From: Sergeia podlipaevii
Taxonomy: Eukaryota; Euglenozoa; Kinetoplastea; Trypanosomatida; Trypanosomatidae
Assembly (NCBI GenBank): GCA_030849805.1
Contig: JASANZ010002257.1
Coordinates: 1-64,000 of the forward strand
Direction: 5' to 3'
Length of the DNA: 64,000 nucleotides
The stretch's first letter is position 1; every line of letters begins with the position of its first letter. The position numbers and the translations under genes are program-made. Shown piece by piece: positions 12,796 through 49,075 of this stretch. The notes below the pieces were generated by a model. The model was not told the DNA's origin, did not search any database, and saw nothing but the letters and a program-made list of their open reading frames with translations.

Positions 12796-15700
12796 ATGAA
12801 GAAACACAGTCGATCTGGCTCGGTTGCGTCGCAAAATTCTGTGAGCTCATCGCATCGCAGTAGTATCGAACCACGCGGCTTGCCTGAGTTTAACCGCGAG
12901 TATGCTCAGCAGCTGAGCTTAGCGAAGTTGGGTCGCCAAAGCCGCCGCACCTCTCCACGTGCTTCCGCGGTGGAGAACTCAACACAATTCGATGACTCAG
13001 CGGCAATCCCGGATCCAGCTCCTCCGCACAGTGCCACAGATCGTTTCAGAGGATTTGTGACTTCCCATTTTTCTTCCAGAATCCCTAGCAGTAGCCGCGC
13101 CACGACGCCACCTCGTTCTCCTGTACTGGACGCACGATCTACGTCTGCGCTACCTCCCATCCTGAAAATACCAGCATCTTCTGGCAACAGTGGCGGTAAC
13201 GGTAGTGTTTTACATCGACTGCAGAACGTTCATGCTTCCTTGACCGAGAGCGTTTCTACAGTACAGAGAGAGTCACCGCTTCTACACAGCCCTACTGTGC
13301 TTAATGCTACACGTCCGCACATCCATAGCCCTACGCTGTCTGCTGCGGACACCCAGAAAGCGCCTTCTGTGGCGGAAGCGACACGCGACGGGTTATGTGC
13401 GATGAAGACCCCTGCTGACTTGCAAGTGATGCAATCCATATTGTACGTTCTCCGCTTGACACTACTGGTGTGGCTTACGCTTTTTGTTGTCTTCACGGCT
13501 TTGTCGTTTGCCGTGTCTAGCGATGATGCGTATGAGCCCACTTACTTTTACCGTGGACGCGCGAAGTCTGTTGAAGCCGCACAAGTGTCTCACACACACA
13601 AAGGTGTGGATCGCTTGATACCTCCGCCTTGTCGACAGCTGGCGTTGCGACTTCGATTTGCCGGCCGTGTGCTCCCCACTGTCTTGGCCAAAAGCGACAG
13701 ACTGCATTTTGTAGGGATGGTACTCGAGGACATCATTTCCGGCGCACGTGCCTCTGTACTGTTTGCGTGGGACTTGTTGCTGCGTCCCATTGTGCACCAG
13801 TGCGTGCGGCTGACTACACTTGCCAGTGATGCCATTGCAAGCAATCTTCTTGACAATAAGGCAACCAACAGCCCATTTAGTATTCGTGGCATGGCAGCTT
13901 CTGTCAGCGGACTCAGTCGCGCTGTTGTGGCACCGGTGCACGGCATTGCTACTAGACTTGCCAAGGCGCCAGGCGCGCTGGTTGGGATGTTGCTGCCCCG
14001 CACTGTAGACCCCAATGTGACGGACGTTGCTGCTGGCATGGGTGTGCAAGGGGACTATGACGATCTTGTAATCCGTATCTGGAGTATGCTGAAGCGGTTA
14101 TGGGACTGGTTGAGCCGTGTAGTGCTTTTGGTAGACCAAGACGAGGGTAACATCACTGCAGCGTATGCCCAATCTTTCGCGAAGCCTCTTCAATTCTTGA
14201 ATTCTACTGCTTCACTCACGAATGGTTCGACATCTGGCGCAGCGGAGCAGCAGCTTCTTGCTGAGGTGGAGATTATCACTCACCACTCGCGTGTTTTTCC
14301 TGGTGATGCATGGGGCAGGTTGCTGGCGCACCGCCAGAAGGAGCTGCGCGATGTGCTTCATGCAGAGCTGATGAGGGCGTTGCGTCTTCCGGAGGGTGCT
14401 GAAGTGCGCCACCTGCGCATGCAGGACGGCAGCTTGATGGTTGACTTTGATCTTTACCATGTTGTTCGTATTCCTGTAGACAGCGGTGCGACGACGCCGA
14501 CAGCAGCGGCAATGGAGGAGGCGAAGCAGAGCATTGTGACCGCCGCGAGCGCCAATTTGGAGACGTATCCCTTTGAAGCTCTCATGAAGTTGTACGGTTC
14601 TGCTGCAGGGAAGCAAAGAGTAGCTGCGGAAAAAGCAAAACAGGCAGAGGATGAGAAACGACTTGCCGCAGAAGCTATCGAGAAACAGCGCGCCAACGAG
14701 GCGGAGAAGAAGCGCCTGGAGGCCGAGCAGAAGCAGAGGACTGAGACGGAGGTGCTTCGCGTAAAGGCTGAGGAGGCGGAGAAGAAGCGCCTGGAAGCCG
14801 AGCAGCAACGCCAAGTTTTGTTGAGCCAAGTAGAAAAAGGCAAGATGGAACTTGCTGCGCTATCCAAGAAGATTAGCGACGTGGAAGTTTGTGAGGAACA
14901 ACTGCGTGTAGCACGTGAGAAGCACAACCAGGAGACAGCAAGTACATTGCACACGCACAAGCGTCAGGTGGAGGAAGCAAAGCTGAGGCATCACCGTGAT
15001 ATGGAGAGACAGATGGCTGAAACTCAAGCGGCGTATGAGATGGTGCAAGAGACACTACAAGACCAACAGGAGGCTGCACGCGTGGCGCTCGCCGCAGCTC
15101 ACTCAGAGTGCAAAGGACATCTAGCAGCCCAGGCAGATGCATTAGCGGGGGCCGCTGCTGTTGATACCCACACGTGTGCCAGCAGTATTGCCGAGCTACG
15201 CGCGAGCCTTGCGGAGGCTACGTACTCTGTCACGGCTGGCGAGCAAACCCTCGCGGAACTGCAAATTGTATCAGCGGAAGCGCAGAAAGCTGCTCAAAAG
15301 AACATGGAAGAGTACCGCACGTGCACGGAGGCGCTTAGCGTCAACCAGCAAGCTGCGGAGGAATGTACCGCAAAGCTTTACACTGCAGTGGAAAACTACA
15401 AGTCGCAGTTGATGGAGGTGGAAGCGACAACGCAGGCGACATGCCAGGCTGAATGCAAACGTGCAATACAGAAGATCGAGGCGCAACTGAAGGCAGAGAA
15501 GGTGGATAGTGCCAGCGCATTGGAGGTTGCCTCGAGCGAACTGCAACGGTCCAGGAAGGATTCGGAAGCTGCCCTCAGCTCTTGCCGTGCCCAAGCTGCG
15601 GAAGAGGCGAGGACCAAGGAAGTCACAAGGAAGCAGCACGAGGACGCCATGAAGGAGGCGCGACACGCTCAGGAAATAGCCTCTGATGCTGCGGCTGCGG

Positions 15701-16947
15701 CGGTCGCAGCACAAGAGGCACTTCTGTCTCGTCTCAGCAAGACGCAGAGTGAGCTCAAGGCACGCGGCAGCTGCAGTGAACACACTACAAGTCGTATCGC
15801 GCGTACTATTCGTCGTTGTGGGCAACTGTTAATTGTATCGGCGCTAGTAGCGTGGGCGGTGATGGAAAAGGTGTCTTGCTACCATCAGGGCAAGCAAGTT
15901 GCTCAGCTGAAAGAGCAACTGAAAGAGCAGGAACGCGTCGACCACGAGCAGTTGTTTCTGGCGCGTGGCGAGTGCGAGGCAGCGTGGCAGGCTCCTACTC
16001 GTGAGTGTGAGGAGCAGTACATGCTTTTGAAGACCGAGTTAGCGTGGCGGCGACAAGCCGTGTCAAATTGCTTTGAACTGCTAGATGCATGGCATCTTAC
16101 ATGCTGCTCGCTACTCTTTGCCCACGAGACACACAGTGATGGCGGCGTTGCTGCAGCTATGAGGAGTCCATCGGACACTGGCTTTGCCCCCTTTGGAGAT
16201 GAAGATATTACAGTTTCAATCAAACCTGCAGGAGATAACCCTTCCTCAGCTATTGATGATTGCTCAACACAACCCTTTTCAAGCGTCACGGCGACGCCGA
16301 CCGACACAGCTCCCTTCTCGTGCACTCAGCGTGAAGGGGACAGTAACGCTCTACGTGATGCGTCAGTGACTACCACGGCTCGTAATTTGGTCTTGTACGC
16401 CCCATCAGAGCGTGGCGTGCTGAACGGCTACTTTGACATGCTGGAGTCCTACTATGTGGATCTGCTCGAAGCCGTCATGAACCGAGAGCTGGTAGAGAGC
16501 CAGCTGGAAGAGATGGAGGAAGTCGCAGCTCGACAGATGGCACTTCTCCGTAAGCAGACCTCCTCTGTAGACACGCTGAGAGTGGCAGCGGCAGAGGCAC
16601 GTGGCGAGCGAGACGCATTTCAAATAGAAGCTGAACGCTCTCGGGAAGAGGCTGCTCAGTCTCAACGCATGACAGAGGTGCAGACTGAAATGGTGAGTGT
16701 ACTTCAGGAGCAGCTTTCCCGTCTGTCACGTGCTCTTAACGCGGACACAGCTGAATATACGGAGCAGCCAACTGCTGTGCAGGCGTCGCCCTCCCTCCCA
16801 TCACCGCCACTTCTTCAAGGAAAGATAGGGACAATGGTGCGCAACCCGGAGCACATACGTCTTTATCGCAAGCTCGACTGGCGCGACGTAAGTGGCGATG
16901 ACGCAGAGAGCCGTGGTGATGGTGATGGTGATGCGAGGAAAGAATAG
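12796..16947 (+). CDS. Two-TM coiled-coil protein with FAZ1-like conserved domain
   Basis: 1383 residues. The N-terminus (1-215) is Ser/Arg/Pro-rich. A membrane segment lies at about 219-241 (VLRLTLLVWLTLFVVF) and a second at about 1011-1027 (LLIVSALVAWAV). Between them, about 493-600, is a segment with the pattern SRVFPGDAW...L..RQKEL, DGSLMVDFDL and YPFEALMKLYG. This resembles the short domain known from FAZ1 and other trypanosomatid coiled-coil proteins (F-G-W, then GSL-V-F, then YPF-LYG). A long coiled coil follows (about 605-985), including a 30-base direct repeat (14701-14730 and 14776-14805, one mismatch) coding EKKRLEAEQ. Further coiled coil lies after the second membrane segment and near 1195-1310. 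A place in the flagellum attachment zone is an inference from domain and shape. An in-frame TTG lies upstream, but ATG 12796 is the first ATG after the acceptor. Confidence 0.7.
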   Translation: MKKHSRSGSVASQNSVSSSHRSSIEPRGLPEFNREYAQQLSLAKLGRQSRRTSPRASAVENSTQFDDSAAIPDPAPPHSATDRFRGFVTSHFSSRIPSSSRATTPPRSPVLDARSTSALPPILKIPASSGNSGGNGSVLHRLQNVHASLTESVSTVQRESPLLHSPTVLNATRPHIHSPTLSAADTQKAPSVAEATRDGLCAMKTPADLQVMQSILYVLRLTLLVWLTLFVVFTALSFAVSSDDAYEPTYFYRGRAKSVEAAQVSHTHKGVDRLIPPPCRQLALRLRFAGRVLPTVLAKSDRLHFVGMVLEDIISGARASVLFAWDLLLRPIVHQCVRLTTLASDAIASNLLDNKATNSPFSIRGMAASVSGLSRAVVAPVHGIATRLAKAPGALVGMLLPRTVDPNVTDVAAGMGVQGDYDDLVIRIWSMLKRLWDWLSRVVLLVDQDEGNITAAYAQSFAKPLQFLNSTASLTNGSTSGAAEQQLLAEVEIITHHSRVFPGDAWGRLLAHRQKELRDVLHAELMRALRLPEGAEVRHLRMQDGSLMVDFDLYHVVRIPVDSGATTPTAAAMEEAKQSIVTAASANLETYPFEALMKLYGSAAGKQRVAAEKAKQAEDEKRLAAEAIEKQRANEAEKKRLEAEQKQRTETEVLRVKAEEAEKKRLEAEQQRQVLLSQVEKGKMELAALSKKISDVEVCEEQLRVAREKHNQETASTLHTHKRQVEEAKLRHHRDMERQMAETQAAYEMVQETLQDQQEAARVALAAAHSECKGHLAAQADALAGAAAVDTHTCASSIAELRASLAEATYSVTAGEQTLAELQIVSAEAQKAAQKNMEEYRTCTEALSVNQQAAEECTAKLYTAVENYKSQLMEVEATTQATCQAECKRAIQKIEAQLKAEKVDSASALEVASSELQRSRKDSEAALSSCRAQAAEEARTKEVTRKQHEDAMKEARHAQEIASDAAAAAVAAQEALLSRLSKTQSELKARGSCSEHTTSRIARTIRRCGQLLIVSALVAWAVMEKVSCYHQGKQVAQLKEQLKEQERVDHEQLFLARGECEAAWQAPTRECEEQYMLLKTELAWRRQAVSNCFELLDAWHLTCCSLLFAHETHSDGGVAAAMRSPSDTGFAPFGDEDITVSIKPAGDNPSSAIDDCSTQPFSSVTATPTDTAPFSCTQREGDSNALRDASVTTTARNLVLYAPSERGVLNGYFDMLESYYVDLLEAVMNRELVESQLEEMEEVAARQMALLRKQTSSVDTLRVAAAEARGERDAFQIEAERSREEAAQSQRMTEVQTEMVSVLQEQLSRLSRALNADTAEYTEQPTAVQASPSLPSPPLLQGKIGTMVRNPEHIRLYRKLDWRDVSGDDAESRGDGDGDARKE

Positions 16948-36831: not shown

Positions 36832-39800
36832 ATGGACAAATACGAGAAGGTTCGTGTGCTCGGCAAAGGCAGCTTTGGTAGTGCTATTCTCATCAAGCGC
36901 AAGTCTGATGGATCGCTTTTTGTTGTAAAGGAGGTGTCGCTTACAAAGATGAGCAAGAAGGAACGCGATGAGGCTAGGCATGAGTGCACGGTGCTACAAC
37001 AATTGAAGCATCCCAATATTGTTCGCTATGTGGAGCAGTTTGAAAATCGGAACAACTTGTATATTGTTATGGAGTATTGCGACGGCGGTGACTTGGCGCA
37101 GAAGGTGAAGCAGAGCCGTGGTCCTATGAAGGAGTCCGTTGTAATGTACTACTTCTCGCAGGTGTGCCTTGCTATGGAGTACCTTCACTCTCGTCACATT
37201 CTACATCGCGACATCAAGACGATGAATGTATTTCTTATGAAAAACGGCGCTGTGAAACTAGGCGATTTTGGCATCTCGACGGTGCTGCGCAACACCATGG
37301 GTATGGCCAACACGGTGTGCGGCACTCCGTACTACTTCTCCCCTGAACTGTGCCGGAACAAACCGTACAACAACAAGAGCGATATATGGGCCATGGGAGT
37401 GCTCTTGTACGAGTGCGCTACAGGCGGGAAGCATCCTTTTGACGGCAACAACATGAACCAGCTAATGCAGCGCATTGTTAAGGGCTCATACTCGCCACTG
37501 TCTAGCCAGTACTCTTCGGAGTTCCGCAAAATGGTGGACTGGTGTCTACAAAAGGATCCATCTAAACGCCCTAGTATCAGACAAACGTTATCATACCCAC
37601 TTGTGCGCTCTTCTCTGGAGCGATTAGAAGAGAATCTTATGCTGGCGACACAGTGCCGAGTGCGCTTGAAAGATATTATTGACTTTGAAAGTGCTATGGA
37701 TAATGATAGTAAGTCACAGCAGCAGCAGCAGCAGCCGCAACAACAAGACAAAGCATGCCCCATTGCCGAAGAGAAGCAGCTGCTTCCTAGCAAGGACTAT
37801 CCGGCTGGCGTGAGCCCTGGACAAGCCGCGGCTATGGCCATGGCCAAGCTTGCGCAACAACAACAACAACAACAGCAGCAGCAGAAGCCACGCAATCCAT
37901 ACGATTTACGGCCGTCTTCCCCTGCGGTTAGTGCCGGAGCGGTTGTTGGGCCCAAACCTGGCGGGCTCGCACACGATCGTTTGGGTGGTGGTGCAGCAGC
38001 AGCAGCCAATAATAACAACAACAGGGCCATCAATAACTTTACCCCTGCTTACTACAACAACCCTACTCACCAACAGCAGGTCTTGCATCGACTACGCCAG
38101 CCAAATGCGGCATTTGTGAATAACCTCAACAACAAACCGATAGAGAGGAAACCACTTGACACACCTGGGCTCCGCTTGGATCGCCCTACAGCCTGTGATC
38201 CACTCGTAGATCCACGCGCTAGAAACATACAGGATAACAACAACAACAATAACGCCATTGAAAATGCGCGCAGGGGCAACAATTTAGAAGTTCAGAACGA
38301 CCGTTTTGGGGACAACATGAATCGTATTAACGCAATTATGGCAAAATACGGCAAGAATGTTGATGAAGAGGCACGCGAGACGATTCATGCCTACATGAAG
38401 CGCAAGCAGGAGGAATACTTGCAGCGTCAGCGTGAAGAAATTGAAAAGCGGGAGCGGCGCAATGACATGCGTCAGAAGGAACTGAAGCGAGTTCTTGAAC
38501 TGCAGCAACATCAGCGAGCCGCCAATGCGGCCAGTCCGCGTCAACGCAGCAACGTCGGGAAGACGGAACAGAACCCCCCACCGTCTGAGCCTAAACAGAA
38601 CAATGACGTAAAGAGCAAGAACATCAGTAGCAGGGCAGTTGATTCCACGCCGCCCGCTTCCCCTGTGAGAGGGCCAGCAACTCCACAGGCAATCAAACCT
38701 GGTTTTGGCCGGGACCCTCGTGGCGTACACGCATCACCGTCAAGCGTCCGCAATCAACGCGGGAGGTTGGGTGGTAAAGCGGCACCAGCTGCTGCCGCTG
38801 CTGGAGTACGACGCCCCGTTTCTCAGCAGCAGAGGAAGGTGGCGGTGGCTGCCAACTCGCCACGGATGAACTTCGATTGTAGGCCTACAGGCCTTGGCTG
38901 CCGGCCCTCTCAGCCTGTGATCCCTAACAGCGCAGCGGCGGTTGCGTCTGGAGGGGCAACACCTGGTCCTAGTCCTCGTGCGCAGCAGCAGGCAGATCGT
39001 CTGGCAGCACAGAAGGAGAGGGAGGAGAAACTGCGCGGGTTGAGGGAAGAGGCGCGATTGCTCGCTGTGAAGGATCAACGAGACAGAATACCACATGGCA
39101 TCAAAGGAGATCTTCCCCTTGAGACTGGCGCTGGTGCCCCTCAAAGTGCTTGTACTCCTTTGAGGCAGCAGAAGCAGCAGCCACAGTCTACTCCTCCTTC
39201 TCGTGATCCCAACCACTACGGCAGACACGGAGGCTTGCTTGCTTCTCCAGGCTCCGGCCCGTCCAAGGCAGGCGGCGGCAATCCCTTCCTCCGGCAGCCT
39301 GGACAGCGTAGGCCATTCAGCACGGAGGAGTCCAACCGTCTCAATGCGCAGTCCCCACGTCGCCTTAAAGCCCCCGGTGCGGGCGACAGCCCTTCACTGT
39401 TCGTCAGCCCGATCCATCCTCAGCGAGGGCTGACTCCCAGCAACGGCAAAAGCAATAAGGAGGCCCGAAGAGAAATAGCGTCACCGCAGAGAGCCGCTCA
39501 GGTGCCTTCATTGGATGCGAAGGATATCCCTGAGCTTGACGTTGGCGGTGCTCCGCTGTGTAGTCATCACTCCCCTGCGCACGTGAGTGGGGATCCACGG
39601 TACCATCGGCCCAAGACCCACAGCCACGGAATTCTCTCCCCACTAGCACCTCCGCAGCCTCCTGCGGTGGTATCTGGCGAGTCCCCACAGCGGCGTGCCA
39701 GCGTGCTGCCGCCTGTCGGAGGTGAATCACATTTAGTAGGAGCTGGTGGCGCTCTAACAGGGCACCAAATACGACCGCAGCCCCAGCCATTGCGCGAGAA

Positions 39801-40989
39801 GGAACGTGTTGCTGATTTAGTGGATGTACCGTACGGGGCAGGGCGTGATATTCCTGACACAAATGCTGCCCCAGTTCAGGATGCCCTCCGCGTGCTACGC
39901 CAACGCTCAGGTCTTCTTGGCGCGCACCGCACAGGAGCAGAGGCGGTGGCTCCTCAGCCGCTGTACATTCCATCCAAGCAGTCTGGCCCTACAGCGCTTC
40001 TCCACCGGCATCTTTCCACGGACGCGGCGCTTTACGGCGGCATGCGGCACGAGGCACATCCGAAGGCAGAAATACAATTCGTACAGGAGCAGAAGCGTCT
40101 GAAACAAGAGGACGAAAGCGCGGTGCCCAGTATGCTAGAGACTCTCCGCGGCCTGCGTCAAGAGGAGAGACGTGTAGAGAGTAGTCAGCTGACGCTACTC
40201 AAGCAACGACACTCGCTGCAGACTGGGTTCGGCTCTGCTTCTGAGAATGGAGGGATAAAGGCAGTGGCGTTGCCCGTAACGGCACTGTCACTTGGCGATC
40301 TTACGGACTTACGCCGTCCTTCTTCGTCATCTGTGGGGAATGCTGCCCCACCGCTCTCTGCTGATGGTGAGCAACGGGGCTCTGTAGATGGCTACTCTGA
40401 GATGCTACAGCACCTTAAGGACCTTCTTCAGAAGAGAAAGGTAAATGTGAAGACTAACACTAGTGATCGAACTGGCGGTGCTGCGCAGGTCTCTTCCAAG
40501 ACGACGTTTTCTCTGCCTTCACCGTGTATGTCTAGGGAGGTCCTCCTGTCTGAAGAGGACTCTGGCGTTTTCGGTCTTGAGTCACCACCAAGGTTGCAGT
40601 GCACTAGGTCCGTTGGTGCGTGTCGTTCTCCTGGACTTTCGGAACACCCCAAGGACGAAGAGAATGCGGCTGAGGAGATAAATGACGACGACGATGGTAA
40701 CGAGGAGGACGAAGACGAGAATGGCACCAACGACGACGATGAGGAGGAGGTGGATGACGACGACGAGGATTTTGAGGATGCAGTTCCACTTTCCCCAGTT
40801 CGTTGTGCGGAGTTGAACGATACGTACGTGCGTGCTCTTCGAGAGGAAGAGCCCAATGCTTCTGCAAATGTGTACTCGGATGACGTATTTCTGAATGGTG
40901 CCTCAAAGGAGATGGAGGAAATTGACGAGGATGGGTACACAGGCTACTATAGACTGCCGTCAGCGGACGCGATTATGAAGAGTGCGTAG
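36832..40989 (+). CDS. NIMA-related (NEK) serine/threonine kinase with long tail
   Basis: The kinase domain is N-terminal (about 4-265) and complete: glycine loop LGKGSFG (10-16), VVK lysine K33, HRDIKTMN with HRD at 125-127, LGDFGIS with DFG at 145-147, GTPYYFSPELC, and SDIWAMGVLLYEC. The HPNIVRY, DGGDL and HRDIKTxN patterns are of NEK type. NEK kinases act in flagellum and basal body maintenance and in the cell cycle; trypanosomatids have many. The remaining 1120 residues are low complexity: Gln runs (about 295-305 and 341-350), Asn runs, a coiled-coil segment with KQEEYLQRQREEIEKRERR, Pro/Ser/Ala-rich stretches and an acidic run (about 1283-1320). The tail has no second domain I recognise. 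The long tail is unusual for the family and may target or scaffold. Confidence 0.9.
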   Translation: MDKYEKVRVLGKGSFGSAILIKRKSDGSLFVVKEVSLTKMSKKERDEARHECTVLQQLKHPNIVRYVEQFENRNNLYIVMEYCDGGDLAQKVKQSRGPMKESVVMYYFSQVCLAMEYLHSRHILHRDIKTMNVFLMKNGAVKLGDFGISTVLRNTMGMANTVCGTPYYFSPELCRNKPYNNKSDIWAMGVLLYECATGGKHPFDGNNMNQLMQRIVKGSYSPLSSQYSSEFRKMVDWCLQKDPSKRPSIRQTLSYPLVRSSLERLEENLMLATQCRVRLKDIIDFESAMDNDSKSQQQQQQPQQQDKACPIAEEKQLLPSKDYPAGVSPGQAAAMAMAKLAQQQQQQQQQQKPRNPYDLRPSSPAVSAGAVVGPKPGGLAHDRLGGGAAAAANNNNNRAINNFTPAYYNNPTHQQQVLHRLRQPNAAFVNNLNNKPIERKPLDTPGLRLDRPTACDPLVDPRARNIQDNNNNNNAIENARRGNNLEVQNDRFGDNMNRINAIMAKYGKNVDEEARETIHAYMKRKQEEYLQRQREEIEKRERRNDMRQKELKRVLELQQHQRAANAASPRQRSNVGKTEQNPPPSEPKQNNDVKSKNISSRAVDSTPPASPVRGPATPQAIKPGFGRDPRGVHASPSSVRNQRGRLGGKAAPAAAAAGVRRPVSQQQRKVAVAANSPRMNFDCRPTGLGCRPSQPVIPNSAAAVASGGATPGPSPRAQQQADRLAAQKEREEKLRGLREEARLLAVKDQRDRIPHGIKGDLPLETGAGAPQSACTPLRQQKQQPQSTPPSRDPNHYGRHGGLLASPGSGPSKAGGGNPFLRQPGQRRPFSTEESNRLNAQSPRRLKAPGAGDSPSLFVSPIHPQRGLTPSNGKSNKEARREIASPQRAAQVPSLDAKDIPELDVGGAPLCSHHSPAHVSGDPRYHRPKTHSHGILSPLAPPQPPAVVSGESPQRRASVLPPVGGESHLVGAGGALTGHQIRPQPQPLREKERVADLVDVPYGAGRDIPDTNAAPVQDALRVLRQRSGLLGAHRTGAEAVAPQPLYIPSKQSGPTALLHRHLSTDAALYGGMRHEAHPKAEIQFVQEQKRLKQEDESAVPSMLETLRGLRQEERRVESSQLTLLKQRHSLQTGFGSASENGGIKAVALPVTALSLGDLTDLRRPSSSSVGNAAPPLSADGEQRGSVDGYSEMLQHLKDLLQKRKVNVKTNTSDRTGGAAQVSSKTTFSLPSPCMSREVLLSEEDSGVFGLESPPRLQCTRSVGACRSPGLSEHPKDEENAAEEINDDDDGNEEDEDENGTNDDDEEEVDDDDEDFEDAVPLSPVRCAELNDTYVRALREEEPNASANVYSDDVFLNGASKEMEEIDEDGYTGYYRLPSADAIMKSA

Positions 40990-42901: not shown

Positions 42902-45900
42902 ATGACCTCCAGGTTTCAACAGTTTGTGATCAGTGATAGCGATGAAGATAGCGCGGACATGGCTGTACAGCAACACCGCGATGGCCGTGCAAACGGCTCG
43001 ACTTTGATTCAAAAGATGGGGTCTACGAGCGCTCACCCCAGCCAGGTACCAAAGCAGACGGCTTCTTCCATGTCGTTTCATACTGCATCCTCTGAGACAC
43101 CTCTTCAGCCAATAGCCCAGGGCGGAGAGTACCCAACTGAGAGCGTGCCATCTCAACGCCACACTCCGCGCGAAAGTGTGCACGAAACTATGAGCGTGCG
43201 CTCCAGCCATTTGAATGCCACTTCCCGTAGATCTGAACAACAGCCTCAGGTCTCCTCCAGCCGCGGAGCCAATATGGCGGATCACGCGTCTGTTTCACCT
43301 GCATCGCTACACCCAAATGCGATGGCAGCTGAGTACCCTGTGGAAGATGGTATTGCTGACGGCGAACATCAACTACCCGCTACGGTACGACCACCTGTGT
43401 CGGCGCCACCAGTGTCCACCAGATCCGCGCAGAGCCTCGCTATGCCACCCTCTTCGCATGCCAGCAACGCACAGCAGCAGCGCCGTTCGAACGGTGGCAC
43501 TCCTCGGCCGAGTGCGCTCGAGTCCAACACGGCTAACACGCTGCGTGCGAGTGAGCTCGGAAGTGAGGTAGAGAGACGTAGCGTGCCTCAGAGCGGTGGC
43601 GTTGTGCGTGGCACTAGCGGTTATGGCGAAGCTTCACAAAGCCCGCAGCAGTTTCCAACCATACTGGCTGCTCGCATCGACAGTAGCGTGTCAAGACCTG
43701 GCGTTACACAGCGTCTCCCTCCGCCACGACGCGTTTCCCCGCAGGCACAACGTGCCGCCGTGAGCCGCTCTGTCAGCAGACGCCACATTACCCCTCGCTC
43801 TGGACACGACGAGGAGATGGATGAGGTACCACCTCAAATTCCCACCCGTGCATATCGACAGCAGGCACCGTCTGCGCAAGGCGACTACTCTATAGAGGAG
43901 AATGATCAGCAAAAAGCGCACACGCAACACAGCCTTCGTGACAGCGCACGACAATCATCACATGCTACAGAGGAGGAGAATCATGCTTTGGTGCCGCATA
44001 GTGTAGGCGCTCACGTAGACAATACCGCTACGGAATCCATTGATTTTCGCATGGACGGGACAAGCGTGTCTCATACCCTCACGATCACTACCCGTGAGGT
44101 CAGCAGAAGTGTGCCTATGTCGACTTGTCGGGCTCGCCCAATTATCCCTTCTCCTTCCGCACTGGAGCCGCTTCCTACTCCGTATAGCATTGACGACGAT
44201 GGCAACATGGTGGCCCACCACCGTGCTGCTGTGCGTCAGACAGTTCTTGAGGACGGGCGCGTTGCGTGGGTGTTTGTCCCACCTCACCGCGAGAACGACG
44301 CAGATGGACTGGAGATGCATGAAATTGCTGCTCCACCGAAGCGCTTGTCACAGCGCGCACAGGATATCATGGCTGCCAAGCGCCGTGCCGTTGAGGAAGA
44401 GGCGCGCCGACGTCATGCAGAGCAGCTGCAGCTGCAACAGCAACAGAAGGCCATCGAGGAGAAGCAGGCAGTCAAGAGGCAGAAGGAGGCCACACATGGC
44501 CAGAGTATCCACCGCCAGTCTGGCACGCTTTACAAATGTACCTTTCCTGTTGAAGCCTTCGCTGGCGAGCATTCAGCCGCTCAGCACCGCGCTCCAGAGC
44601 ACGAGGCAGGATGCGAGGGCTGGAGTGCGCAGCATATGGATCAGCACCCCTCTTACGTCCACGCTCGCGAGGCCGCCGCTGTGCATCAGGACGAAGCGCG
44701 CTGGCGGGCTGAACAGCTTGTGCGCATTATTCAGCCAATTCAGGTGGATGGGTCTGGATTTAAGCAAGTCTGCGCGTGCGCGTCGTATGACTCTACTCGA
44801 AGCGCTGCTCTCAGCGAACTCATCAGCAGCCACCACGCCATGGAGGAGGGCTTCAAGCGATACCTTAACTTGCAACCGATGCAGCTTGCCAATGTGGCCG
44901 TGGAGGATATGGCAGAAGGGGAGCTCATGACTCCATCGTCACGCAACCGTCACCCTTCAGTGCATGATGTGGACTTCACTGCCGGTCCCCGTGGGAGTTC
45001 TCTTCCGCGCGGCATTGCGACTCTTGGCGGCCTTTGGTGCACAGTACAGGCACTTCGTGAAGATGGCAGACCCGCAGCCCGCAGCGCTGCGCAGCGAAGA
45101 GTCATGCGTGTGTGCGGCGGACAGGCGATTGGACTACCACTTCGTGAACACCATCGCACACTGGACGTGCGCTGTTACGAGCTGATTCTCTTTTCCCAAG
45201 AGGCTACTGCGCCGACTGCGGTGAACTACGGCTCCAACAACATTACCCTTGGCCAGCTGGTACCCCCGCAGGCGTCTTCCTTCCCGCTTACCCCTCGAGT
45301 TATCGATACCCCGGCCATGCTGAAGGAGTACAAGAAGAAGCTACTAACCACAAAGTGTTCTGAGGCCATCATTGAGAACAACGAGGATGACAACACCACA
45401 TTTGCTGGGCGAACATACGAGACTGGTGCAACGCCGGCGCGCTACATCACACTCACGCTGGTAACTATTAACACTCATCAGAAGTACACAGTGGACCTCA
45501 CTCTTGTGCTACTCCCGTTTTGCTCAGACAACACGAGTGGCGGCAAAACACTCGCTGAGATCCCGCGTTTTTCGCCAACTTCTGTCGCTGCAAACCGTCG
45601 GTTGCAGAGCGTGTCACTCTCCTTCTCCACCAAGTCCTCATTTATGTCCGCCTACAAGGCACTTTTGTGGGCTGCCGAGTGCAACATTGTGGACATTGAA
45701 CAGCCCAGAACGGACCCCACCAACTACGTAAAGTTGCGCGTCACCGCTACCACATCGCCACTGCTGCCGTGGTCGTCGTCGTTGGGCGCGGCCGATGAGT
45801 CCATGCCAAAGAACGAAACGTTTCGCGGGCACTGCGTCGACTACGCTGTTGTCGCGCACGGAACTTCTCCCAATCCCAGAGAGCCGCTGCGCCTTGATGA

Positions 45901-48900
45901 CTTTGTTATTCACGAGGTTGCGAAGGCAGCTGACGGCGGTGCCGTTGGCGAGGAAGACGCGCTCCGCCAGTCTCCCTCTAGTCGTCAGCAGCAGCGCAGG
46001 CGCAGCTCCATCTTCACCAACACTCTCGTCACACCGAGTGCGCGAGAGCAGGACGTACTTTTTGGGGAGGGTGCGGGAGGCACCACCGCCAGTGCCAACA
46101 CCAACAACGACACTGTGGTGGCTCTCACAGCTTTTGGTGTGGTGCGTCGTGCGGTGAACCAAAAGACAGGAGAAGTGTTTGATGTGCGCGTGCTGCCACG
46201 CTCCCGGACCCGCATGCTTCCGTGGTTTTCTCAAAAGAACGCCGCTGACCGTGGTGGAAAAATGCAAGAGGAGCACGTGTGGGAGGAGGATGTGGAGGCA
46301 GCTATCATGATGGAGTACGTCTCACAGCTACCCTTCTTGGCACGCGTGTATGGTGTCCTTGTGGACGAGCAGCGCTACTACGTTTTCCAAGAGCCATGGA
46401 TGTCAGCAGTTGCGCTGGAGCAGTCGCCGGTGGGCAGCGTGGAGCGTGCGTCGATTGAGTTTAACCCGATGCTGAAGCGGATTTCTGAGAGCACTACTGT
46501 CATGTCTCTGAAGGACTTCATTCACGGCGTGCTTCATGCTCCCGCCCAGAGCCGCTTGCACGTTGCAAAGGAGGAGGCGCGTATTCAGATTGCACACTTA
46601 TTGGCTTCCCAGTTGTTGCTACTGCTCGCTTCTGTTCATGGAAAGGGCATGCTGCTTGGCCCATGCCCACCACAGCGCATTCTTGTGCGTATTGAGTCTG
46701 ATGCTGCTGCTACTGCAGTTTGCATGGAGGATGAAGATCTCGTCAGTGAAGACTGCCAGAGCCCGCAAAGGGAAAATCCAGCCAAGACGCCGGTCGAGTC
46801 TGGCCGCTTGCAGCTCTTTATCCCCGATATTGGCATCAACACAACATCATGGAGTTACGAACGCCAGCAGTGTGGTATCCTCGAGTATCTATCTCCCTCG
46901 TTCATTTTTGAGCATATGCTTGATGAGGACGTTGGCCGTGAGAGCCGTCCGTGGACAGTTCATGATGATTACTGGACGTACCTCTGCGTCTGCTTTGAGC
47001 TTTTTGCCGCAGACGGCACTGCGCTTGTGAAGGCTTCTGCAGGAGCCCCGACTCCGCTACCGATGCTAACCAAGTTCACCTCCCCGGTTGATATCCTTGA
47101 TCTCTGGCGTGAGGTGGTGACGGACGACAGGATCTCCAGGTGTGGCACGGCTCACGCGACGCTTGCGGCACGAGTGCGCGGCTATGTACGGCGGCGCCTG
47201 CTTGAGAGCGTAGCCCCTTCCCTGGATGGATGGATCACCACGAAGGCAGAGGAGATGGAGTACTTTGGGACGACTGCTACACGGCGTAAGAGCGCGCGTG
47301 CTGTGCCACGAGAGGGTGACGAGAGTGGCATGATTGGGGTTTCACTCTCCTCTATGCATCCACGTCTGGCACGCAATGAGGCGACCACGGAAATGTCCAG
47401 TGTGCTCTTCTTTGATGAGGATGAGGAGGGTGGCAGGTCGGTTGGTCGCAGCGTTCGTTCGAACAGCGCAGTGAGGCAGAATATTCTTGAGGAAATGCCG
47501 TGGATATTGAGCTACCGCGACCTCTTTGACTCTATTCTTGACGTCGTCTTCCTTGACAATAACGCCGTAAAGTGTGCCATCCACGGTCCTTCTCTCTTTT
47601 TGTTTTCTCATTCCTTCTTCGGCTCCTTGGACCTTGCTCAAGTCTTTGACGGCTCCTATTCACTGCCACCTGCCGCCTCCGCGTTCTGCCGTCGGTACTT
47701 GAGTAAGTCGAAGGTGCGTGAGGCACTCATGATGTATAGATCTCGCGCCCATCGCGGACCAGTGGCTAAGCGCGCAGACGCTCCGCTCATGATTACTAGC
47801 TCCGCCTTCAACACAGGTGGCGGCAGTGGCGGACCTGCAGCTCTGCTGCTTCTTTCGGCCCGCGAAGGCGGTTTTGGCGATGATGCCAGCCACTTTGACG
47901 AAGACCTCCTGGCTAGCGGTGGCGTCTCCCCATCTTCGGCTGCGCGTGGTCTTTCGCCTCGTGCTCGCTCGGAGTCCCCCGCTGTTCAGCAGAACAAACT
48001 GCGCACAATGTACAAGGGCGAGGAGTTGCAGGAAATCGCAGATCTCGAGAACGACGTTCGTGGAGCTTTGCACGCACACCAGACCCGTGACAACTCGTGC
48101 ACACCACGCACTTCCACAACACATGGAAGCAGCACACGTCACCATGACGGGCACAGTGGTGTAGCACCCAGCGCTGGCTCAGTTCGCAGCAGTCGCGATT
48201 CTCACCGCCATCAGCGTGCTACTGCTCCCTCTATCGATGAGCTACGTGACGACAGGCATTCGGAGCGCACCAGCGGGGGCAGTAGCAGGCGCCATCACGA
48301 CCAGCGACGCGCAGATCCCAACGTTAACTCATACGGTAAGTTGGACACACGCCAATACATTGAGCAACGCCCACGCTCTCACCAGGCCTCTGACTACAAA
48401 GATGTGGGGCGTGACAGTGGCATTGCCTCTGAGTCACATTACGGCGATAGCAACTACGACTCCACCGTTAACACGCATGGTCGCGGGTCGCAGCACGCGC
48501 AACGCTACAGGAATTCCGAGAAGCCGCGTAGCCAGCACTCTGGAGGTATTTCACGTGGTGGCCGCGGTACGCACACAGAATCTTCCAGATACGACGATGG
48601 CCACACAGCTCGCAGCTCGCGCGAGGGTCAACGTGCACACCCTCGCAGTAGCAACGAGAGCTCCGGGGATGCACGCATCAACAAGGGCTCCCAGCACCGC
48701 AGCTCCTCTAACCTCGCAGACCCAATGATATCAAGTTTTGATCGCCCTGTGATTGACCAGACTATATCTGAGGCACGCAGTCGCGCGCGCCATCAGCGCA
48801 CTTCACGTGACCCCGGTGTCGTACATGCTGCGGAGCCTGGGTGTCAGGACAGCGACGACGAATCAGTTGTACTGGTTGCCTCGGACAATGAGCATAGCGA

Positions 48901-49075
48901 CTGTGGCGACGCTGAAGCACGCTCTGCTGCGTCCACTTACAACTCTAACAAGATGCAACGGCGCCACGTAACCTCTCGCAACAAGGACAAGATGCCGAAA
49001 TCTGCTGGGAGTCACACTCCAATGAGCCGTCACACACATAGTACCGCTGCCTCTGACGCATACTTTGAGTTTTAA
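42902..49075 (+). CDS. Giant protein with predicted pseudokinase domain
   Basis: 2057 residues. 1-490 is disordered and Ser/Gln/Arg/Pro-rich. A charged helix follows (about 490-545). A beta-rich folded segment lies at about 705-960, possibly PH-like, but I cannot name it. From about 1070 to 1420 the protein has the outline of a protein kinase with its chemistry lost. TAFGVVRRAVNQKTGEVFDVRV is the small lobe, with R1096 where the VAIK lysine belongs. LHVAKEEARIQIAHLLASQL and HGKGMLLGPCPPQRILV replace the helix and the HRDxKPxN loop; P1254 stands at the catalytic Asp and R1259 at the Asn. PDIG (D1309) stands for DFG. ILEYLSPSF resembles the APE region, and DDYWTYLCVCFEL resembles DxWxxGvxlxEL. 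The last 400 residues are Ser/His/Arg-rich and disordered. A scaffold or allosteric role is inferred; the kinase likeness rests on motif order only. Confidence 0.75.
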   Translation: MTSRFQQFVISDSDEDSADMAVQQHRDGRANGSTLIQKMGSTSAHPSQVPKQTASSMSFHTASSETPLQPIAQGGEYPTESVPSQRHTPRESVHETMSVRSSHLNATSRRSEQQPQVSSSRGANMADHASVSPASLHPNAMAAEYPVEDGIADGEHQLPATVRPPVSAPPVSTRSAQSLAMPPSSHASNAQQQRRSNGGTPRPSALESNTANTLRASELGSEVERRSVPQSGGVVRGTSGYGEASQSPQQFPTILAARIDSSVSRPGVTQRLPPPRRVSPQAQRAAVSRSVSRRHITPRSGHDEEMDEVPPQIPTRAYRQQAPSAQGDYSIEENDQQKAHTQHSLRDSARQSSHATEEENHALVPHSVGAHVDNTATESIDFRMDGTSVSHTLTITTREVSRSVPMSTCRARPIIPSPSALEPLPTPYSIDDDGNMVAHHRAAVRQTVLEDGRVAWVFVPPHRENDADGLEMHEIAAPPKRLSQRAQDIMAAKRRAVEEEARRRHAEQLQLQQQQKAIEEKQAVKRQKEATHGQSIHRQSGTLYKCTFPVEAFAGEHSAAQHRAPEHEAGCEGWSAQHMDQHPSYVHAREAAAVHQDEARWRAEQLVRIIQPIQVDGSGFKQVCACASYDSTRSAALSELISSHHAMEEGFKRYLNLQPMQLANVAVEDMAEGELMTPSSRNRHPSVHDVDFTAGPRGSSLPRGIATLGGLWCTVQALREDGRPAARSAAQRRVMRVCGGQAIGLPLREHHRTLDVRCYELILFSQEATAPTAVNYGSNNITLGQLVPPQASSFPLTPRVIDTPAMLKEYKKKLLTTKCSEAIIENNEDDNTTFAGRTYETGATPARYITLTLVTINTHQKYTVDLTLVLLPFCSDNTSGGKTLAEIPRFSPTSVAANRRLQSVSLSFSTKSSFMSAYKALLWAAECNIVDIEQPRTDPTNYVKLRVTATTSPLLPWSSSLGAADESMPKNETFRGHCVDYAVVAHGTSPNPREPLRLDDFVIHEVAKAADGGAVGEEDALRQSPSSRQQQRRRSSIFTNTLVTPSAREQDVLFGEGAGGTTASANTNNDTVVALTAFGVVRRAVNQKTGEVFDVRVLPRSRTRMLPWFSQKNAADRGGKMQEEHVWEEDVEAAIMMEYVSQLPFLARVYGVLVDEQRYYVFQEPWMSAVALEQSPVGSVERASIEFNPMLKRISESTTVMSLKDFIHGVLHAPAQSRLHVAKEEARIQIAHLLASQLLLLLASVHGKGMLLGPCPPQRILVRIESDAAATAVCMEDEDLVSEDCQSPQRENPAKTPVESGRLQLFIPDIGINTTSWSYERQQCGILEYLSPSFIFEHMLDEDVGRESRPWTVHDDYWTYLCVCFELFAADGTALVKASAGAPTPLPMLTKFTSPVDILDLWREVVTDDRISRCGTAHATLAARVRGYVRRRLLESVAPSLDGWITTKAEEMEYFGTTATRRKSARAVPREGDESGMIGVSLSSMHPRLARNEATTEMSSVLFFDEDEEGGRSVGRSVRSNSAVRQNILEEMPWILSYRDLFDSILDVVFLDNNAVKCAIHGPSLFLFSHSFFGSLDLAQVFDGSYSLPPAASAFCRRYLSKSKVREALMMYRSRAHRGPVAKRADAPLMITSSAFNTGGGSGGPAALLLLSAREGGFGDDASHFDEDLLASGGVSPSSAARGLSPRARSESPAVQQNKLRTMYKGEELQEIADLENDVRGALHAHQTRDNSCTPRTSTTHGSSTRHHDGHSGVAPSAGSVRSSRDSHRHQRATAPSIDELRDDRHSERTSGGSSRRHHDQRRADPNVNSYGKLDTRQYIEQRPRSHQASDYKDVGRDSGIASESHYGDSNYDSTVNTHGRGSQHAQRYRNSEKPRSQHSGGISRGGRGTHTESSRYDDGHTARSSREGQRAHPRSSNESSGDARINKGSQHRSSSNLADPMISSFDRPVIDQTISEARSRARHQRTSRDPGVVHAAEPGCQDSDDESVVLVASDNEHSDCGDAEARSAASTYNSNKMQRRHVTSRNKDKMPKSAGSHTPMSRHTHSTAASDAYFEF

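Follow-up and report, generated by a model that had tools for sequence, protein, structure and literature searches.

The window analysed here is a 64,000-nucleotide stretch of Sergeia podlipaevii DNA (contig JASANZ010002257.1, positions 1 to 64,000). On its forward strand, positions 42902-49075 hold an uninterrupted frame of 2057 codons, in which an initial annotation had described a 2057-residue protein with a catalytically dead kinase fold. The antisense strand in the matching register is interrupted by stop codons, and the start codon is matched in relatives such as P0015. When residues 560-1640 were used as a query against the organism's own genome (23.4 Mb, 576 contigs), a single locus was matched. 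Three protein searches, each scoring the best 7988 or 7989 candidates, returned 21 relatives, then one more and then two more. The resulting family of 25 rows comprises the window protein and 24 relatives (P0002-P0025), among them proteins of several Leishmania species, Leptomonas, Porcisia, Angomonas deanei, Trypanosoma melophagium, T. conorhini and T. cruzi. Over the kinase region, the relatives share an identity of 0.41-0.56 with the window protein when they come from outside Trypanosoma, and of 0.27-0.28 when they belong to it. No T. brucei relative was found among the candidates scored in each search, which does not imply its absence. The gene encodes a conserved, single-copy trypanosomatid protein. 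Several relatives are automatically named 'Protein kinase domain-containing' in UniProt, so the databases already hint at a kinase domain; no publication on the protein was found among the titles and abstracts listed in literature searches by presumed gene number or as a pseudokinase.

To compare the family with kinases, kinase profiles were aligned to it with hhalign. The 25-member family scored 42.6 against a profile of eight kinases from the same genome, compared with 32.6 for the best of 200 column-shuffled profiles and 17.3 for the reversed profile, and 65.9 against five AGC kinases, where the best of 100 shuffles reached 25.5. Both alignments pair R1096 with the VAIK lysine, LLGPCPPQR with HRDxKPxN, DIG with DFG, and CGILEYLSP with CGTPxYxAP. 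A negative control, strictly cut to residues 600-1000, scored 13.9 against the kinase profile. The predicted structure places strands and helices in bilobal kinase order (N-lobe strands, helix C, helices E and F, and later helices), and matches kinases in Foldseek and VIA-align. The initial annotation had put the domain at about residues 1070-1420; its start and order of landmarks hold, but the modelled fold continues to about residue 1616 (Table 1).

Table 1. Positions of the 2057-residue protein and its features in the window
Feature	Residues	Nucleotides	Strand	Remark
Whole open reading frame	2057 amino acids	42902..49075	+	
PH/EVH1-type domain (probable)	about 709-931	45026..45694	+	
Pseudokinase domain	~1072-1616	46115..47749	+	Profile alignment, predicted structure, conservation
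VAIK-Lys position (in FDVRVLPR)	R1096	46187..46189	+	Arg in 25/25
LLGPCPPQR, replacing HRDxKPxN catalytic loop	1251-1259 (P1254, R1259)	46652..46678	+	
DIG at DFG position	1309-1311 (PDIG from 1308)	46826..46834	+	
CGILEYLSP, equivalent of CGTPEYLAP	1324-1332	46871..46897	+	APE Glu missing in 25/25
DDYW, equivalent of AGC DWW motif	1355-1358	46964..46975	+	Trp 1358 in 25/25
Low-confidence C-lobe insert	1457-1524	47270..47473	+	pLDDT under 50
C-lobe end, HSFFGSLDLAQVFDG	1570-1584	47609..47653	+	HPFFxxIDFAxLF in P0023-P0025

Three of the catalytic landmarks within this domain are replaced throughout the family. Arginine for the VAIK lysine, proline for the HRD aspartate and arginine for the loop asparagine, all claimed from the single sequence, lie at landmark-aligned positions, and an alignment with the relatives shows the three original residues replaced in every row. 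The HRD positions read Leu, Gly and Pro in 25/25, and the asparagine position is Arg in 22 rows, Gln in one and Gly in two. At the place of the catalytic loop, HRD is missing from all 24 relatives. HRD-like strings occur elsewhere in five of the 25 proteins, all outside the catalytic loop (that of T. melophagium sits in an insertion downstream of the helix-G stretch), and the VAIK-like strings of ten proteins never fall at the beta-3 position. Other features of the fold persist. The glycine-loop residue G1079, two glutamates of the helix-C stretch and the glycine of DFG are present in 25/25, and the APE-like and DxW-like segments expected by the initial annotation are found at 1324-1333 and 1355-1358. 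DFG likewise reads DIG, but the window protein keeps its aspartate. This residue is Asp in 21 of the 25 rows, and Gly, Ala, Thr and Thr in the four Trypanosoma rows. The simplest reading of these alignments is that activity would have disappeared before Trypanosoma diverged from the other lineages, with the replacements maintained ever since.

To investigate the kinase group from which the domain may descend, 39 kinase domains were recut by profile from fetched loci, the genome total being 135 PF00069 matches. AGC labels were given by the DWWxxG motif of that group. When kinases were scored one by one, the six AGC-labelled kinases scored above the 33 others (Mann-Whitney p 5e-4), and five of the six fell in the top eight. 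We considered whether the protein arose as a catalytically dead paralogue of the AKT/RAC-like kinase of trypanosomatids and still works alongside its pathway, perhaps as a decoy of the active enzyme or as its allosteric partner. The AKT-like gene of the same genome shares the domain order (PH at C392:19997-20269, kinase at C392:20387-21148), with which the predicted folds agree, and the C-lobe end of P0023 from T. conorhini, HPFFIGIDFAKLF, resembles HPFFNDIDFAKLF in the AKT-like kinase, whose HPFF..IDF string occurs in no other of the 39 kinases. However, IDF is found at the C-lobe end in 3/25 family rows, and the string is missing from this genome's remaining AGC kinases. The best single score came from a non-AGC kinase, L026, while the AGC kinase L044 was 12th. 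Of 80 random four-member non-AGC sets, 11 scored at least the 65.9 of the AGC set (best 93.4), and nine of these 11 included L026; part of this set-wise scoring left out kinases with an HRD or DFG that departed from the search pattern. VIA-align Z values were tied for AGC, AMPK and CDK1 chains, and the PH profile comparison scored 13.8, below the best of 60 shuffles (20.3), revealing no similarity in sequence between the PH-like domains. The labels themselves are sensitive to the motif. L042, which is 39% identical to the AKT-like kinase and ranked 17th, was labelled non-AGC, and a looser label marked seven kinases as AGC. AGC descent is tentatively favoured and AKT-like descent is possible, and we consider an AKT paralogue acting beside that pathway an unlikely explanation, though the strongest of the rivals.

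The protein very likely lacks phosphotransfer activity, judging from its residues, because the catalytic aspartate, the VAIK lysine and the loop asparagine are all missing. An active kinase of unconventional mechanism, with residues supplied from elsewhere, would be compatible with the retained DFG aspartate, which weighs against inactivity, and with the invariant DFG glycine and helix-C glutamates. WNK kinases provide an example of a catalytic lysine supplied from elsewhere. ATP binding can in some cases survive when the lysine alone is lost, as noted in work on Leishmania mexicana (PMC7902614). We nevertheless regard this as very improbable: proline occupies the catalytic aspartate position and the loop asparagine is replaced in every row, LLGPCPPQR contains no acidic residue, and the four Trypanosoma rows have lost the DFG aspartate as well.

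Several results weigh against assigning a kinase fold. No Pfam kinase match was obtained at E <= 1 for any of the 25 members (22/22 and 3/3 without a match), the other Pfam matches being DUF1604, Tup_N and DUF3761 alone at E 0.11-0.52. NCBIfam gave one chance row (E 0.21) and nothing significant, and sequence searches of the PDB gave nothing significant either: two of them returned CASK at E 1.7 and transketolase at E 0.47, and two others no match. A search with Pkinase_C matched nothing anywhere, controls included, and is uninformative. Against the eight-kinase profile, non-Trypanosoma rows alone scored 29.6 and Trypanosoma rows alone 28.7, both below the best whole-family shuffle of 32.6, and cleaner alignments of the region reached 35.7 and 35.4, slightly above it. 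The model of the kinase region has a moderate mean predicted local distance difference test score (pLDDT) of 63.8, and template modelling (TM) scores in Foldseek were low, 0.20-0.28 by query and 0.30-0.58 by target among the 50 matches listed. That the landmarks are a chance resemblance picked up by the structure model would agree with the empty Pfam and PDB searches, the moderate pLDDT and the low TM-scores, but is highly unlikely, since the structure-free profile comparison yields a kinase alignment with landmarks in register, where shuffled profiles and the negative control fail. It is highly probable that the region has a kinase fold; the predicted model is kinase-like at moderate confidence, and the dead kinase of the initial annotation is supported by profile similarity, predicted structure and residue replacements. 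Neither of the outcomes that the annotation had named as counting against it, a model lacking the bilobal fold or orthologues with intact motifs elsewhere in the domain, came about.

The beta-rich segment left unnamed in the initial annotation is present, and from its predicted structure is probably a PH/EVH1-type domain. The second structure model used an alignment whose cut ran into the kinase region, so that the end of that model may be distorted. The long arms around the two domains are probably disordered; hydrophobic residues make up 15-21% of the arms and 31-40% of the two domains, and this scarcity in the arms fits disorder. An acidic C-tail motif resembling SSSEESYVLVPSD lies at 48848-48886 (residues 1983-1995), with an aromatic residue three before Val in 17/25 rows. 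The aromatic position is Val in the window protein, three further rows lack an aromatic, and four have no sequence there. The motif resembles an LC3-interacting motif, a reading set aside because the aromatic residue is missing from the window protein.

With its catalytic residues replaced in a kinase-shaped domain, the protein probably works as a platform for docking or regulation instead of as an enzyme. We propose that it would use ATP weakly or not at all and would retain the fold as a docking or allosteric platform, of which the rewritten HGKGxLLGP loop may form part of the binding surface. The PH-type domain might anchor the complex by binding either a lipid of the membrane or a peptide partner, and short motifs in the arms could recruit further partners. 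Taken whole, a single-copy pseudokinase of probably AGC-like descent, with a PH/EVH1-type domain, disordered arms and a docking or allosteric mechanism, is a moderately probable description. A bolder version is less likely even than the AKT paralogue: an AKT-derived pseudokinase fused to a PH-type domain, dead before the split of Trypanosoma from Leishmania-type lineages, whose HGKGxLLGP loop would be a dedicated binding surface for regulating an active AGC kinase or a complex tethered to the membrane, and which Pfam-based surveys would have missed.

The same-strand neighbours of the gene include a NEK1-like kinase gene, IFT140, a B9-C2 gene and leucine-rich repeat (LRR) genes. The NEK1-like domain lies at the N-terminus of a 1385-residue protein encoded directly upstream (36832-40989). 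A 1383-residue protein at 12796-16947, in the same window as the ciliary genes IFT140 and B9-C2, contains a FAZ1 conserved domain (E 9.4e-10). Within the 2057-codon gene, a 243-residue frame in a different register (44199-44930, forward strand) is probably due to chance.

Among known systems, the RAC/AKT-like kinase described in Leishmania and T. cruzi (PMC5633885; loci L013/L038 in this genome) also has a PH-type domain preceding the kinase, and resembles the family in AGC-like activation-segment and C-lobe motifs. It differs in being about 510-526 amino acids long, with intact catalytic residues and a PH domain dissimilar in sequence. Elsewhere in the genome, two frames (C575:136097-137257 and C337:33940-35280) carry a kinase followed by a PH domain, an order like that described for trypanosomatid NEK kinases (PMC1266030). 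Twelve pseudokinases have been predicted in T. brucei (PMC3894213), and 11 (PMC7902614) or 10 (PMC13211308) L. mexicana pseudokinases are reported to lack all three catalytic residues. The latter are likewise kinase-like with catalytic residues lost, and are described as dispensable in promastigotes, but are defined by loss of K, D and D together. In the general sense of a kinase fold with at least one catalytic residue lost, the window protein is a pseudokinase; by the stricter definition as given in PMC7902614, it and its Leishmania relatives, which keep the DFG aspartate, are not, whereas the four Trypanosoma rows, those of T. cruzi among them, would qualify. T. brucei NRP1, a pseudokinase without HRD and DFG motifs, is likewise described as having a non-catalytic cellular role, but it is AAK1-related (NAK family), with 30% identity, and recognisable by BLAST (PMC9633767). 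KKT14 of kinetoplastid kinetochores is a divergent pseudokinase, conserved though its catalytic motifs are lost (PMC11286163). It is distinguished by its description: most Bub1-like, C-terminal in a kinetochore protein, and with no PH-type domain named in that account. NRP1 and KKT14 thus provide precedents for pseudokinases in this group. In the window protein the fixed catalytic-loop replacement provides a precise site for a partner search. The L. mexicana kinome is described as built from earlier orthologues and Pfam kinase matches (PMC7902614), and as Pfam is blind to the kinase in all 25 members, kinome-wide screens may have left the protein out, in parallel with KKT14, whose pseudokinase domain was missed by earlier sequence surveys and escaped the earlier pseudokinase catalogue (PMC11286163).
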